A DNA stretch of 64,000 nt, from positions 310,001 through 374,000 of the forward strand of contig CANNBV010000001.1 in assembly GCA_947502975.1 (NCBI GenBank). Reading direction: 5' to 3'. Of the stretch, positions 1,835 to 34,943 are shown piece after piece. The notes under the pieces are model-generated. The model worked only from the letters and a program-made list of their open reading frames with translations. It searched no databases and was not told where the DNA came from. The stretch's first letter is position 1; each line of letters begins with the position of its first letter. Position numbers and translations under genes: made by a program. Source of the DNA: an uncultured Flavobacteriaceae bacterium (GTDB lineage Bacteria; Bacteroidota; Bacteroidia; Flavobacteriales; Flavobacteriaceae).

Positions 1835-2758
1835 TCAAGAAAATTTTGGAATAACCTTTTCTCCAATTTCTTCTATTAATTCTTCTGCTGGTCTTGAGCT
1901 ATATTTTAAATTCAGAATAACGTGGTTTACACCATAAGATTCCAATAAATTCAAATGCGCATTTAAGTATGATGTTCCCGATTTAAATCCAAGATGTATT
2001 GGAGATGGCTTTGCTTTCGAATCTTTAATGATATCAATGTACAAAGATTGCATAAAGGGTTTCCACTTTTCTTTAGTTTTTGTAAGCGCTTCTTGCCACT
2101 GTTTCATTACCAATTGTAATGTTTTGAAATCTCGAGGATAATACAACCAGCCGTCTGAATGTTTTGCAATCCAATCTAATGTTTGTCCAGAATGTCCAGT
2201 TACTAGCATAGGTGTTTTTTTATGGTATTTGGGTAGCAAATCAATACCACCACTGGTACTACCGTAAAACTTAGAAGTGTAAGTGGGAAAATCGTCTTGC
2301 AAAGCTTTAATATAAAAGAAACTATCTCTGAACAGCTCCGACTTATTGTCTAATGCTTGATTAAAAGCAGAATATTCTATCGGCCTGTCTCCAGATGCTA
2401 TACCTAAAATAAGTCTTTCATTAGAAAGTAGCTGAAGACTATTGATAGATTTAGCCGTATGAACAGGATGTCGTAATGGTAAAATAATACTAGCTGAACC
2501 TATAGTAATTTCTTGGGTTTGATTCATTATGTGCGTCATGTAAATCCAAGGGTCATAAAGTTGTCCTGCATCACCAAATAATGGATCATTAAAAGGAACA
2601 TCTCTAAACCAAAGCGCTTTAAAGCCTAATTCCTCAGCTCGCTTAGCTAGAATTTCCTGATTTTTCATAGTAGGGACAGAACCGTTGTAGGCCTCTATCG
2701 GAAAAACCAGCCCTAGTGTTAATTTGCCTTTTGTTGCTATTTTGTTAAATGCACGCAT
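1835..2758 (-). CDS. LLM-class flavin-dependent oxidoreductase (TIGR03571-like)
   Basis: A 307-residue luciferase-like monooxygenase (TIM barrel; FMN or F420 family, FMN being likely here). The N-terminus TLGLVFPIEAYNGSVPTM, the strand FKALWFRDVPFNDPLFGD and the segment ERLILGIASGDRPIEYSAF match the BA3436/TIGR03571 subgroup as I know it. It is the last gene of a four-gene minus-strand operon: its ATG at 2758 abuts the stop of the SDR gene with no spacer. Such enzymes oxidise small organic substrates with reduced flavin. The nitroreductase in the same operon could supply reduced flavin, but that is inference. Confidence 0.82.
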   Translation of the reverse strand: MRAFNKIATKGKLTLGLVFPIEAYNGSVPTMKNQEILAKRAEELGFKALWFRDVPFNDPLFGDAGQLYDPWIYMTHIMNQTQEITIGSASIILPLRHPVHTAKSINSLQLLSNERLILGIASGDRPIEYSAFNQALDNKSELFRDSFFYIKALQDDFPTYTSKFYGSTSGGIDLLPKYHKKTPMLVTGHSGQTLDWIAKHSDGWLYYPRDFKTLQLVMKQWQEALTKTKEKWKPFMQSLYIDIIKDSKAKPSPIHLGFKSGTSYLNAHLNLLESYGVNHVILNLKYSSRPAEELIEEIGEKVIPKFS

Positions 2759-3556
2759 TTATCTATTCACTATTTTTTTTGTTTCAGAAAGTAATCGTAC
2801 TATTTTTTCATGGTCATAAGCATCGTTATGGGCAGTGTTAAAACTCCCTCTATCATTATCAAAATAATTACCATCACTTTTTGAATACTTTTCTGAGGTT
2901 GCTAACTCATATAGAATATTTGCACCTTTATCTGCCGAAGACCAATGTTGGCCATAAGCTTCTTTAACCATTTTAGTATTTAGTAGAGATCCTGGGTTTA
3001 CAGCAATTGTTAGTATTTCTGAATTTGCTTTAGCGAAAGCAAAACTCCACATGGCTAAAGCCAGTTTGCTTTGTGCATATGCCTCTTGGTTAGAGATTTG
3101 CTTGTCTCCAAGTAATGCTTCAATTGAAACTGATGATTGAGCGGCAGAACTTAAATTTATAACTCGTGGTGAATCGCTATTTTTTAATAATTGAATTAAC
3201 CCATTGGTAAGAAGATAAGGAGCAAAATAATTTACGGCGAACCTTAAATCTAAACCATTTTGATTGGATTGTATTTTACTTTTAAACACACCAGCATTGT
3301 TAATTAAAACATCAATTTTGGAGTATTTTGAAGCAATGGATTCTATCATTTTTTCAATACTATCAAAATCTGACAAATCAGAAACAAAGCCACTTACAGA
3401 GGCATTGTTGGATAGTTTTTTAATTTCGACTTTAGTTTGTTCTAATTTTTCACCATTTCTACCGTGCAACAATATTTGATAACCGTATTTCGCTAATTTA
3501 AGTGCGGTTAATTTACCAATACCATCTGTGCTTCCTGTTATTAAAATTGTTTTCAT
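2759..3556 (-). CDS. Short-chain dehydrogenase/reductase
   Basis: A 265-residue classical/extended-style SDR. The N-terminal dinucleotide motif is TGSTDGIGKLTA, followed by NNAGV near residue 90 and the catalytic YAQSK (Tyr-x-x-x-Lys) near residue 160 with an upstream Ser in NLSSAAQSS. The fold and length fit the retinol-dehydrogenase-like SDRs that reduce carbonyls with NAD(P)H. It is the third gene of the nitroreductase-cupin-SDR-LLM operon, separated from its neighbours by 0 to 2 bases, so translational coupling is likely. The substrate is unknown. The operon context suggests reduction of reactive aldehydes, ketones or quinone breakdown products, which is inference only. Confidence 0.85.
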   Translation of the reverse strand: MKTILITGSTDGIGKLTALKLAKYGYQILLHGRNGEKLEQTKVEIKKLSNNASVSGFVSDLSDFDSIEKMIESIASKYSKIDVLINNAGVFKSKIQSNQNGLDLRFAVNYFAPYLLTNGLIQLLKNSDSPRVINLSSAAQSSVSIEALLGDKQISNQEAYAQSKLALAMWSFAFAKANSEILTIAVNPGSLLNTKMVKEAYGQHWSSADKGANILYELATSEKYSKSDGNYFDNDRGSFNTAHNDAYDHEKIVRLLSETKKIVNR

Positions 3557-3558
3557 AG

Positions 3559-4416
3559 TTAGTCAACTTTAATTTTTCCATTAGTTCTTACGTATAGTAA
3601 AACCTCATTTTTAGAAGTGTTTTTTATATTGTGAATAGCTTTACTGGTTGCGCCAAAATAACTTCCAACATCCAGTATTTTCTCTTTTTTGTTTTGTGGC
3701 ATTGTATAAACCAATTCTCCTTGAACAACTACCGAATGTAAAACAGTACCGTCAGTATATATTTTTCCCAGATAGCCTTTAGGAAGTTTGATAAATAAAC
3801 TTTTAAGCGTATTAGCTTCTTTATTATTTAATAGGAAACTTATTTGTGCATTACTTTTTTGATTTACCCAATTGGTTAAATCAGAATCCAACCAAACTAG
3901 ATTAGAAGCATCAATATTTACAGGACGTTCACCATTATCAAACGCTTCTTCTATTGATTTAACTAAATAAGGACCTTTGTTAATTTCTACAAGAGCCATA
4001 TTTTCTGCTCCCTTAGCAGAAGTTACATGTAATGCCTCTTTTGGTTGTGTCCAAAACGAACCTTTAGACATCCACATATTTTCAGCTTTAGGGTCATCAT
4101 TATGTATAGTGCCTTTAATCACTACAGCTCGATACGTTACGTTATGTATATGTGGGGGTGAAGAAAATCCGTCTACAAATTTTGCTAAAAAACCTGTGGC
4201 TACATTTGCATTTCTATTTCCCCAAATAGTTCCTGCTTGTGGACTTTTATCACCTCTTGCTGGATTAAGTTTCTCCCAAACAATTTCAGAACTTAAAACA
4301 ACTTTGTTAGTAGCTTCTTTATTTATTTCTGGATTATGCTTTTTTATCTGTTTATTTTGATTATTACACCCAAAAACAGCAAATATCAAAAGTAACCCTA
4401 AGAATTTGTATATCAT
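3559..4416 (-). CDS. DUF4437-type cupin lipoprotein
   Basis: A 285-residue protein with a lipoprotein signal (hydrophobic run ending FAVFGC, Cys17) and two cupin-like halves. The first half carries the metal-site-like stretch [20 protein letters not shown] (His residues and a downstream Glu/His region in KEALHVTSA); the second half, around [20 protein letters not shown], repeats the barrel with fewer ligands. This matches DUF4437. It sits 4 bases downstream of the nitroreductase stop and 2 bases before the SDR. A periplasmic metal-dependent cupin in an otherwise cytoplasmic oxidoreductase operon is unusual. Activity is unknown; dioxygenase, isomerase or ligand binding are all possible. Confidence 0.78.
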
Positions 4417-31127: not shown

Positions 31128-31237
31128 GGGCGTTACCCCGTTCGGTCGCTGAGGCTCTCGAAGCGGGGTCGGGCTTTCGGCAGTCGCTCTCTCCTGCGTC
31201 GAGGAGCTTCAACAAATGCCTCAATCCCTAACGCGGG
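31128..31237 (+). repeat. Dispersed GCGTTA-ended element, copy 2
   Basis: Begins GGGCGTTACCCC nine bases after the DUF1501 stop and ends AATCCCTAACGCGGG. The inner sequence (CTCTCTCCTGCGTCGAGGAG, then CTTCAACAAATGCC) is shared with copy 5 and partly with copy 4, defining a second subtype. It forms the left border of the accessory island. Confidence 0.85.
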
Positions 31238-31449: not shown

Positions 31450-32244
31450 ATGTTACAAGGTTTAAAACCATGTTCTGGTAATCATTCAATAAAAAATGCT
31501 GAAGCTCAAATATTTGTACCTCAGTCATTTGTAGCTATTGAGGAAGACTTTAGGAAATTTCAAACGATTGATATCTTTAATAGTTTTCAAAAAAAAGGTT
31601 TAATTAAACCTACAACTATTAGTATTAACAATAAGGGTTTGGGTGTTGAGCAATCTCCAGTTTCAGGCTATATTTTTGAAAAATTTGAGTCAAATGGTAG
31701 TTTAAAAGATGTTTTTCGAGTAGAAAATATTAATAATAGCAATAGAAGTGTATTGTCATTATCTACACGGAAATATAGTAGATGGGGTAACTTCAAAGAA
31801 GAACAATTAAGATTAGTTTATCAAGCTTTAAGTGAATTAAAACCTTATATTAACGCAGTCAGCTTTACTTACCTAGATGAATTTGACTGGCATGGCGAAT
31901 CTAAGATACCTGTGTATGAAATTTTTAATTCTAAATCTGAATTGCTTAATATAAAATTTTTAGACTCACGAAATGGCACTTTAGTTTTAATATCTCAGGG
32001 TTTAACTGAAGAAGAAAATTTAATAACCGAAGAGAAAGTAGAATTAAGCTTTAATAATGATTTAAGAAAAGTACAAATTTCTCATCAGTTTTTAGTTAAA
32101 TTTAAATCTCCTTTTAGGATATTAAAAATTGACGAAGCACAAAATTTAGATAAGTATTTTGATATAGTACATAAAGAGCACAAAAGCTTTTTAAATCATT
32201 TGTTGACAGATGATTGTAAAGAATTAATTAAATTTAAATTATAG
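31450..32244 (+). CDS. Uncharacterised protein, resembles TIGR04255 family
   Basis: A 264-residue soluble protein with no signal or membrane segment. The N-terminus HSIKNAEAQIFVPQSFVAIE, the middle WGNFKEEQLRLVYQALSEL followed by INAVSFTYLDEFDW, and the late strand VQISHQFLVKF recall the sporadic TIGR04255 family (an acidic or hydrophobic start, an Arg/Trp-containing middle helix, a LxYxxxF strand). I hold this at about even odds. It is the first of three compact genes (gaps 6 and 16 bases) set between a repeat element and an empty spacer, the usual look of an accessory cassette. Codon use is very AT-rich. Function unknown. Confidence 0.75.
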   Translation: MLQGLKPCSGNHSIKNAEAQIFVPQSFVAIEEDFRKFQTIDIFNSFQKKGLIKPTTISINNKGLGVEQSPVSGYIFEKFESNGSLKDVFRVENINNSNRSVLSLSTRKYSRWGNFKEEQLRLVYQALSELKPYINAVSFTYLDEFDWHGESKIPVYEIFNSKSELLNIKFLDSRNGTLVLISQGLTEEENLITEEKVELSFNNDLRKVQISHQFLVKFKSPFRILKIDEAQNLDKYFDIVHKEHKSFLNHLLTDDCKELIKFKL

Positions 32245-32250
32245 AAAAAT

Positions 32251-32772
32251 ATGTTATTAACTAATTTGCTTTTAAGTGGTTTAGATTATAATGCGGTTGA
32301 AAGAGGTAGAATAATTAATTCTAATTTTTTAATGCCAAATTTGGTTGAAGAAGTAGTGAGCTATGAAGATAGTGATAGTTTTTTAGAAACTAATAACACT
32401 TATCTTTTTCATTTTGATAGCATTAGTAGCGTTTATCAAACTATTTCATCAAAGTTAAAAGAAGAATTTGAAAAGAGCAACATTAGTTCTGATGTCTACA
32501 AGACTTCATTCGACTTAATTAGTTTATTACCAGAGTCAATACTCTTTAAATTAGCAGAAGACAATGTTTATCCTACTAATTACGGAACGATTGTTCTAGA
32601 TTGGGAAGACAATGAATCTAACGATGAATTTTCATTAGAAATTGGTAAAGATTGTTTTGGTTATTTTTCTGAATTTGATGGTAAAGACACAATTAATGTT
32701 GAAGAGGTTGCTTTTAGTTCAAAAGAAGTTAGTGAACTGCATAAAAAGATTGAAGAATTTTATCAAAGATAA
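32251..32772 (+). CDS. Uncharacterised protein with YGTIxLDW motif
   Basis: A 173-residue acidic soluble protein, second in the three-gene cassette. A helical N-terminal part (SSVYQTISSKLKEEFEKSN) leads to the distinctive C-terminal block NYGTIVLDWEDNESNDEFSL followed by EIGKDCFGYFSEFDG. I recall similar 'YGTI..DW...(L/S)xEIGxxxxGYF' blocks in small proteins of accessory regions, sometimes beside TIGR04255 genes, but no function is known to me. It begins six bases after the first gene's stop. No catalytic signature is apparent. Confidence 0.72.
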   Translation: MLLTNLLLSGLDYNAVERGRIINSNFLMPNLVEEVVSYEDSDSFLETNNTYLFHFDSISSVYQTISSKLKEEFEKSNISSDVYKTSFDLISLLPESILFKLAEDNVYPTNYGTIVLDWEDNESNDEFSLEIGKDCFGYFSEFDGKDTINVEEVAFSSKEVSELHKKIEEFYQR

Positions 32773-32788
32773 AATCTTCAATAATGCT

Positions 32789-33367
32789 ATGGGCATAGAG
32801 GAAGAAATTGCTCCTAATGAAATCTTAGTAAGGTATGTTTTTTCAGATGACTTCAAAGGACAGAACATAATAGCAGAGAAAATTATAACAAAAAATTTAT
32901 TGGGACCTCTGAGAGGAGGAACTTCATTGCAAAGAGAAAAATATTGTGATGAAAGTAAATGTAACGAATTAGGAAATAAAATTCCTAATAAACACTTAGT
33001 TGGGTTTTTAATATTTATTAAAGATGACTTTGATAAAGTTAAGTCAGCTTTTATAGAATCTAATGATAATGCTGGAACAGGAATCGTTTTAGATGCTTTT
33101 ATCAAAGCGACGCCTTTAGATGAAAGCTTCAATATTTTAGATTTCAAAAAGGTTAAAATCACTATGGATACAAAAGGGAACCCTGCACACGCAGATATTG
33201 TTTATTTAAAGCCAAAACTAATTCCAGATGATGTTCCTTTTTATGAGAAACCTAACACAACAATTAGGTCTTTTTCAAAGAAAATGTTTTTCTCTTCAAA
33301 TTTAGTACTGAATAAAAGTAAAGACAAATCAGTTTTTATAGGTTCTAAATTTAAAGAGTATTATTAG
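32789..33367 (+). CDS. Uncharacterised protein with NPAHAxI motif
   Basis: A 192-residue soluble protein, third in the cassette. The open frame extends 49 codons further upstream inside the previous gene, but that stretch is just the previous gene read out of frame; ATG 32789 lies 16 bases after its stop. The core LVRYVFSDDFKG, RGGTSLQREKYC and GNPAHADIVY recalls a widespread small family of unknown function with 'Arg-x-x-Ser-x-x-x...' near the start and 'NPAHAxI' near the end. The Cys pair in KYCDESKCNE is notable. The basic C-terminus (TTIRSFSKKMFFSS) might bind nucleic acid; this is speculation. Confidence 0.72.
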   Translation: MGIEEEIAPNEILVRYVFSDDFKGQNIIAEKIITKNLLGPLRGGTSLQREKYCDESKCNELGNKIPNKHLVGFLIFIKDDFDKVKSAFIESNDNAGTGIVLDAFIKATPLDESFNILDFKKVKITMDTKGNPAHADIVYLKPKLIPDDVPFYEKPNTTIRSFSKKMFFSSNLVLNKSKDKSVFIGSKFKEYY

Positions 33368-33778
33368 GTAAATTTCGACTAATGTCGAATTTATTAATAT
33401 TCGACAACATTCAGATTAATTTTTGTAATTCGTTAGCTCTATGAATTGATCGGATTCTGATGTGAGGAATATACCCTATGTGTAGATATGTTTCAATTTT
33501 AATGAACTATATCATACGTTAATGAGTTTATTCATTTGTGATAAAATCAAAGTAAAACGACTGGAGATATATAGAGTTATTTAAACTATTGGACTTAGAA
33601 TCCGTATCAACAAATCAAGTTCACTTTAATTAAAAACAGGGCAAAAAAAAAACCTTGACTCTGTTTCGATTTGGAGCACAAGGTTTGATTAAATGATTAA
33701 TAGCGGTGCAAACATACGGCTTTCCCGTAAATTTCAAAAACTCTAACGTTAAATTATGGTTAAATATATTAACAAATG
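33368..33778. other. Gene-free right flank of the accessory island
   Basis: A 411-base gap. Just after the last island gene there is an inverted repeat GTCGAAT...ATTCGAC (33384-33405), possibly a weak terminator. Near 33648-33687 AAACCTTG and CAAGGTTT pair over a 20-odd base loop. The rest is AT-rich with no open frame, promoter or repeat I can defend. Confidence 0.45.
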
Positions 33779-34912
33779 TTAATTGTATTTCACCTTCCTT
33801 AAAATCCGCATAACTTCTTTATACATAAGGTAAACACCATTGCCTTGGCCTTTCAGATACGGCTTAGCATCTTGTAATTTATCTATGGCATCTTCAAAAT
33901 CGTTGAGGTAGCAAATTAAATAATTTGATGGCAGTTGGCTTAAATCTAATACTTCATGTTCCGCTAAAGTCAATCCCTTTTTTAATTTCTCTAAAAGTGC
34001 ATTGTTGGTGTTGTAAATATGATGTAGTGTTTTTTTATTGAATTGTGGCGGCTCAAATAGTAGCTTAGTTTCAATAGTGTAACTGGCATTATCCTGAAAA
34101 TTAATGACGGTTTCTTCCAACGGATAATATTTAAAACGCTTTTGATAACCAAGATTTACATACTCAGTAATTTCAAAGGTATTTTCTGTAATTTTTATAG
34201 AGACTTCATCCAAAGCTGAAAAAAACAAACGCACTTGCTCATTGACCAACTCAATATCTACTCTAGAAAAAAACACCTCTTTTTTTACGATTTTCTTTTG
34301 CCCAGCCCAGCATACCACAAAGTATTCCTTAAACACTTTGTATTGCGCGTTAAAGTCTTTTCTGGTATTCATGAAATGCATCACACCATCAAGTGTATGC
34401 TCAATATTGTTTTGCGCATTCTTTTCGATGGCTTCCACAATTTTGGAATTCACATCTTTAATATCACTTTCAAAAACTTTGGGCATGCTTATACTGCCGT
34501 CTCTAAAAAACACAGAACCACCATAGTATTTCCAGATGTTTTTTCTTAGTGCAGTAAGTTTACCGATAGGCCTAATAGTTACTAACCCGACTACCTTGTC
34601 ATCAGGTAAATGCGGAAAAGGAATATTCTCATATTGCACAATTGGCGGATTTGTCAAATAGGCATTAATCAAATTTTGAATTTTACTATCATCAAAAAAA
34701 TCAACACCCACAATGGTGTTATCGGCATCTTCAACACCAATTACGATATACGAATTGTTCTTAGGGTTACTATTAGAAAGTGCACAGATGTGCTTTAAAA
34801 ACTTAGCCTTACCTTCCTTTTGACCAATATCAATTTTGCGCTTTTTATCATAAAAACTATTCTCATCATTATGAGCTAAAAGGTGTTTTATAAGTAAGCG
34901 TTTGTTAATCAT
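33779..34912 (-). CDS. AlbA_2 (Schlafen-like) putative DNA-binding protein
   Basis: A 377-residue protein. The frame is open ten codons upstream, but those codons (reading IPAFAGI) come from a REP-like palindrome, so I start at ATG 34912. Residues about 20-130 form an AlbA_2 domain with KKRKIDIGQKEGKAKFLKHI, NNSYIVIGVEDADNTIVGVD and VVGLVTIRPIGK. The rest is a helical region without a recognised family. AlbA_2 proteins are called putative ATP-binding or transcriptional regulators and occur near toxin or stress genes; in this form no HTH is obvious. It lies downstream of the HD and SDR genes in the same orientation. Confidence 0.8.
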   Translation of the reverse strand: MINKRLLIKHLLAHNDENSFYDKKRKIDIGQKEGKAKFLKHICALSNSNPKNNSYIVIGVEDADNTIVGVDFFDDSKIQNLINAYLTNPPIVQYENIPFPHLPDDKVVGLVTIRPIGKLTALRKNIWKYYGGSVFFRDGSISMPKVFESDIKDVNSKIVEAIEKNAQNNIEHTLDGVMHFMNTRKDFNAQYKVFKEYFVVCWAGQKKIVKKEVFFSRVDIELVNEQVRLFFSALDEVSIKITENTFEITEYVNLGYQKRFKYYPLEETVINFQDNASYTIETKLLFEPPQFNKKTLHHIYNTNNALLEKLKKGLTLAEHEVLDLSQLPSNYLICYLNDFEDAIDKLQDAKPYLKGQGNGVYLMYKEVMRILRKVKYN

Positions 34913-34917
34913 ATCTG

Positions 34918-34940
34918 TAATTCCTGCGAAAGCTGGAATC
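34918..34940. repeat. REP-like palindrome
   Basis: Hairpin ATTCCTGC-GAAA-GCTGGAAT with one non-Watson-Crick pair, between the HD gene stop and the AlbA_2 gene start. Translated on the minus strand it gives the artefactual N-terminal extension IPAFAGI. Confidence 0.75.
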
Positions 34941-34943
34941 AAT

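Follow-up and report, generated by a model that had tools for sequence, protein, structure and literature searches.

A three-gene insertion in a Flavobacteriaceae genome encodes a TIGR04255-like protein and putative distant relatives of the phage defense candidate PDC-M32

Three short, AT-rich genes that adjoin one another between conserved neighbors in the genome of an uncultured Flavobacteriaceae bacterium raise the question of whether they form a functional unit and, if so, of which kind. The genes lie on the forward strand of a 64,000-nucleotide stretch, termed the window, and comprise gene A (31450..32244), which encodes a TIGR04255-like protein of 264 aa, gene B (32251..32772; 173 aa), whose product carries a YGTIxLDW...EIGxxxxGYF block, and gene C (32789..33367; 192 aa), which specifies a protein with an Arg...Ser...NPAHADI pattern. 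All three frames are intact, with gaps of 6 bases between A and B and 16 bases between B and C, and the start of C is the ATG at 32789 which is nested in a longer frame that begins with TTG. Genes for DUF1800 and DUF1501 proteins flank the trio upstream, where a copy of a dispersed repeat (31128..31237, forward strand) also is located; a 110-base query with this repeat produced 41 matches in the genome. Downstream, a 411-base spacer in which no gene was recognized (33368..33778) separates the trio from a reverse-strand gene (33779-34942) whose product was assigned AlbA_2 and DUF5929 domains by domain search. The ORF positions, gaps, and spacer are as described in the initial annotation, which also was correct in reporting a dispersed repeat and an AT-rich composition: the GC content is 0.268 in A, 0.276 in B, and 0.292 in C, and 0.276 in the trio as a whole, compared to 0.325 in the whole window; the flanking genes reach 0.348 (DUF1501) and 0.336 (DUF5929). 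When trio-sized segments were sampled in 200-base steps, six of 311, counting those that overlap the trio, were equally AT-rich.

The site of the trio was compared within the genus. Among 12 genomes searched with A, the gene was present solely in its own genome and in none of the 11 other species; a second weak match contained two internal stops and was taken as chance. The locus behind the DUF1501 gene was extracted from 10 relatives, in which tblastn with A, B, and C gave no match. The DUF5929 gene was within reach in three of these, including one in which it is separated from the DUF1501 gene by ~160 bases (L091) and another in which the gap contains one gene of 174 aa (L085). In the other seven relatives the DUF5929 gene was outside the stretch that was taken, and the six of these that are listed show other neighbors. 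As the contents differ between relatives, the site is variable and the trio arrived as a unit. The initial annotation placed the genes in an accessory island, which is overstated: the trio stands alone, with neighbors on both sides that the genus conserves, and constitutes a single small insertion rather than an island. At the corresponding site in a sister species (L083) an HNH-type endonuclease gene (2595-3962, by visual inspection) and another gene were observed.

The TIGR04255-like character that the initial annotation gave to gene A was retained with a qualification. The protein matched the NCBIfam TIGR04255 model over residues 54-260 with an E-value of 1.3e-6 and a score of 28.4 bits, which is just below the curated cut-off of 30 bits, and its relative P0004, which precedes B and C in a second locus (L005), passes that cut-off with 40.4 bits. 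Small models built from TIGR04255-type proteins failed to score window A above shuffled sequences (0.6 versus 9.8 bits, and 3.3 versus 10.3 bits) and therefore the match to the NCBIfam model, together with the relatives, forms the basis of the assignment; window A and the A protein of L005 were counted as TIGR04255 by the NCBIfam result. We know of no function for the TIGR04255 family, and no paper that names it was found in the open-access literature. Searches of Pfam and NCBIfam at E 1 gave no match for window B or C, a direct PADLOC search matched none of the three window proteins, and a scan against phrogs returned chance-level matches only. Sequence searches of the PDB with P0001, P0003, the C profile A7, and the B profile A6 also produced nothing useful.

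Does the trio recur as a unit? A search with B of 246 genomes of the order gave matches in eight, two of which (L005 and L006) were confirmed in addition to the window. These loci belong to two other families of the order, and in both A, B, and C are immediate neighbors (P0004-P0009). Among the weak B matches L007-L011, the one that was inspected (L008) shows unrelated genes. In the reciprocal direction, TIGR04255 proteins were detected in four of 148 genomes of the order, and relatives of B and C follow directly behind in three of the four (the window, L005, and L006). In the fourth, the TIGR04255 gene is followed by two different small genes (L013:644-2217), and thus TIGR04255 exists without B and C as well. 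The window and L005 proteins are 36, 34, and 41% identical for A, B, and C, respectively, and both retain Arg, Ser, and His as well as the EIG/GYF and NPAHADI blocks. Further in the phylum, A, B, and C are co-located in L062, in L064, and in the near-identical loci L067 and L068. Relatives of B and C also stand behind an unassigned first gene in a member of the Rhodobacteraceae (L036). Side-by-side occurrence elsewhere, which the initial annotation had predicted, was found in each of these A-B-C loci and in one viral contig (L139), and neither absence of co-location nor degenerate remains, the two outcomes named there as contrary, was observed.

Searches with C were less productive. Window C had no accepted match beyond the window in 299 genomes of the family, nor did a three-row C profile when 296 genomes of the phylum were searched, and thus this subtype is rare. 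Matches in four genomes (G095, G298, G119, and G633) contained internal stop codons and one in G157 was situated inside a 1031-residue frame; all were set aside as chance. A first pattern scan of genome contigs found nothing, the patterns probably having been drawn from the variable N-terminus. A second contig scan, which used a DNA pattern, yielded 20 stretches; the motif lay within an ORF in 15 of them, and visual inspection showed a C relative in L036 only.

The association between B and C was assessed more broadly with a 12-row B profile (A6), which was run against 296 genomes of the phylum and detected 22 places in 20 of them. One place (L065) was false: the product is lipoprotein-like by visual inspection and fails the refined model. 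In 20 of the remaining 21 places C is located directly downstream at E 0.01 or better, a figure that was easier to reach by construction as the models had been enlarged with many of these same rows; the last place (L063) is at a contig end. An earlier 11-row C profile (A7) that predates these places identified C directly downstream at E < 1e-3 in 12 of 17 unused places; nine of these 12 are in one genus (g338) and include several near-identical copies, with L059, L062, and L064 representing three other genera. The five misses comprise L061, where the next gene is C-like by visual inspection, L067 and L068, where the match is weak, the contig end at L063, and the false place L065.

Whether window B and C belong to this wider group was evaluated with independent models constructed from 16 other B and 16 other C proteins, from which the window and L005 rows were left out. 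Window B scored 33.2 bits compared to 6.6 bits for the best of 300 shuffles, and window C scored 13.5 bits compared to a best shuffle of 4.3 bits (204 of 300 shuffles scored). The C protein of L005 attained 25.4 bits versus 5.7 bits for its shuffles; L005 B was under the shuffle level (6.2 versus 10.8 bits). As the scores exceed those of shuffles with models that lack both the window and L005, window B and C are evidently distant but real relatives of the wider B and C group.

These relatives connect the trio with PDC-M32. PDC denotes a phage defense candidate (PMC11514479), and a Sinorhizobium prophage has been described that carries PDC-M32, named there as a hypothetical candidate (PMC12429752). 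The B protein of L006 (P0008) matched the C-terminal part of PDC-M32A in PADLOC with an E-value of 4.4e-6, and P0012, P0015, and P0018 likewise match that part alone, at about positions 236-368 of 375. P0010 is PDC-M32A itself (E 2.6e-155) and P0011, which is located behind full-length PDC-M32A in L019, is PDC-M32B (E 6e-54). PDC-M32B was matched more weakly by the relative P0016 (E 7e-4) and was not matched by P0013 and P0019. A PDC-M32A search detected six of 198 genomes of the phylum, with a small C-like gene directly behind in all five loci listed. Relatives of PDC-M32A were also present in six plasmid records and are followed by a C-like gene in Limnohabitans, Rhizobium, and Rhodococcus (L025-L027); none was seen behind the relative on a Streptomyces plasmid (L028). 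Full-length PDC-M32A was not found as the first gene of the window unit, where B has only 173 aa and no PADLOC match, and C, in the position of PDC-M32B, is tentatively linked to it by the independent-model score without a direct PADLOC match. Thus, a putative distant relationship connects window B with the C-terminal domain of PDC-M32A and window C with PDC-M32B. The initial annotation stated that none of the genes had an assigned function and considered them the best candidate for a new system; B and C indeed have no Pfam or NCBIfam match and the three-gene form is new, but both proteins appear distantly related to components of a candidate already listed by PADLOC. Judged from sequence, the trio is a putative new architecture of PDC-M32, its novelty lying in the three-gene form and in the connection to TIGR04255. 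To our knowledge, as far as a partial literature search extends, the three-gene form has not been described.

The identity of the first gene varies among the loci. It is TIGR04255 by the NCBIfam model in L005 and L006. With a model of four TIGR04255-type proteins, the first gene of L067 exceeded its shuffles (24.2 versus 13.4 bits), and the first genes of L061, L024, L059, and L036, as well as the A protein of L005, fell below theirs. The former four match a model that contains them but were not counted as TIGR04255; by visual inspection each is an unassigned protein of similar size. The first genes of L062 and L064 are 42% identical to one another, that of L062 is 33% identical to the TIGR04255 protein of L013, and that of L139 was picked up with a TIGR04255-type alignment. 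Yet another first protein precedes B and C in L023 (by visual inspection), and the fused N-terminal part of PDC-M32A represents a further alternative. B and C are the constant core of the group, to which an exchangeable first part is joined. A small protein with an NYNPVYxNG...GG pattern was observed by eye in the place of TIGR04255, ahead of B and C, in L022 and L060.

Structure prediction provided a hint about C. The Arg, Ser, and His residues are invariant in eight of eight aligned C proteins. A model of the C protein from L135, a viral-contig relative that is 14% identical to window C, had a mean pLDDT of 93.8 and a pTM of 0.86, and locates Arg 9 in the strand 6-11, Ser 37 in the strand 35-40, and His 89 at the strand 89-93. 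In Foldseek the highest probabilities among the best 50 of 457 matches were for 7kw8, a tRNA 2'-phosphotransferase (0.41), and 1s21, AvrPphF ORF2 (0.38), with E-values of about 0.6 and TM scores of 0.41-0.44; no match of this relative of window C, including those to ADP-ribosyltransferase folds, reached E 0.001. Both proteins possess ADP-ribosyltransferase-like folds. Since two different proteins of this type lead in probability and Arg and Ser are conserved, the model weakly suggests that C may adopt an ADP-ribosyltransferase-like, NAD+-using fold with an Arg-Ser-His site.

The contexts in which the genes are carried bear on their role. In viral contigs, the C profile identified five loci and the A profile two (L134-L140). 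A complete A-B-C unit is located beside a probable holin gene in L139, A is followed by a 217-aa gene and a weak C (E 0.002) between apparent large terminase and portal genes in L140, and PDC-M32A- and PDC-M32B-type genes adjoin a repressor-like gene in L135 and L136, the phage genes having been named by visual inspection. Such spots are usual places for phage accessory genes. The 217-aa gene of L140 (1721-2374) has no match to the B model and may represent either a B protein that has diverged or a different component. Other searches of this kind were negative: P0010 had no match in 50,697 phage records, P0003 had none in the phage-record search, viral scans with P0003, P0002, A3, a DNA pattern, and P0010 found nothing, and plasmid searches with P0001-P0003, P0007, and P0008 were empty. 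Genes that resemble restriction or other defense genes are visible by eye near L027. PDC-M32 or trio loci beside restriction-, GmrSD-, and OLD-like genes were also noted by eye in L096 and L112.

We tentatively favor, at somewhat short of even probability, the reading that the trio is a mobile and probably phage-derived accessory operon for exclusion of, or defense against, competing phages. The relationship to PDC-M32 and the presence of related cassettes in viral contigs lend this indirect support. Against it weigh the lack of P0010 matches in the phage records, the position of several loci among ordinary genes, and the lack of a clear enrichment of PADLOC matches around the loci relative to control stretches. 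In the operon envisaged, A would serve as the sensor and free C upon encountering a phage signal or a nucleic-acid signal, B would tether C to the first protein in an inactive state, and C would be a small catalytic or nucleotide-binding effector which, once active, would modify a target in the cell or the phage, or deplete NAD+, and in this way halt phage growth.

It is improbable, albeit to be taken seriously, that B and C are instead mainly a toxin-antitoxin pair which stabilizes mobile elements, with C as the toxin, B as the antitoxin, A as a regulator, and defense at most a by-product. The two genes are small, in most of the listed loci they either overlap or have only a few bases between them, they are carried on plasmids and in viral contigs, and other toxin-antitoxin genes surround L025. 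However, B often is fused to a large N-terminal domain as in P0010, which is unusual for an antitoxin, and the three-gene form with TIGR04255 recurs.

Unlikely, too, is a metabolic or regulatory complex for nucleic-acid or ligand binding that has spread horizontally and is unrelated to phages. Several of the B loci listed stand among ordinary chromosomal genes by visual inspection. Moreover, the surroundings of B were compared with control stretches. The 22 loci contributed 123 ORFs that lie within 5 kb of B, omitting the first gene, B, and C, and 15 of the 17 controls, taken from the same genomes, contributed 121 (ORFs of 120 aa or more and <1100 aa). At E 1e-10, 247 PADLOC families were matched near B loci and 151 in the controls, with at most two members per listed family on both sides, which is no clear enrichment in defense genes. 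A poor model of the A protein of L139 (pLDDT 58.6) matched TATA-binding-protein-like structures with E-values from 7e-4, TM scores of about 0.3, and an rmsd near 10, which at most may reflect a shared repeated layout of sheet and helix. Against a binding complex of this kind stand the patchy presence of the genes, their carriage in viral contigs, and their kinship with a PADLOC candidate. Very unlikely is a decaying cassette remnant without function, for although window B and C are divergent, the GC content is low, and P0001-P0003 and P0003 lack plasmid and phage matches, respectively, the frames are intact and the residues and blocks common to L005 are kept.

A wider claim than a phage-derived defense operon is rather doubtful, namely that the trio founds an undescribed class of phage-borne immune systems with an exchangeable sensor, an adaptor B, and a minimal ADP-ribosyltransferase-like Arg-Ser-His effector C, of which PDC-M32 would be the fused branch. 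Whichever function applies, the analysis ties three unnamed families together, provides a first genomic context for TIGR04255 proteins, and places the PDC-M32 candidate as the putative fused branch within a broader modular group that occurs in several phyla as well as in viral contigs. The three-gene unit is <2 kb and its role is directly testable.

Two known systems invite comparison. With an ADP-ribosyltransferase-like fold, C shares the weak similarity of its model and the invariant Arg and Ser, but it has no significant match, is smaller, and has His where ADP-ribosyltransferases usually have an acidic residue. As for PDC-M32, window B appears, via intermediates, to be kin to the last ~100 residues of PDC-M32A, window C appears to be kin to PDC-M32B, and gene order and adjacency are the same. 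The two differ in that the window proteins have no direct PADLOC match and in that a separate TIGR04255-like gene stands in the window where PDC-M32A has a fused N-terminal part.
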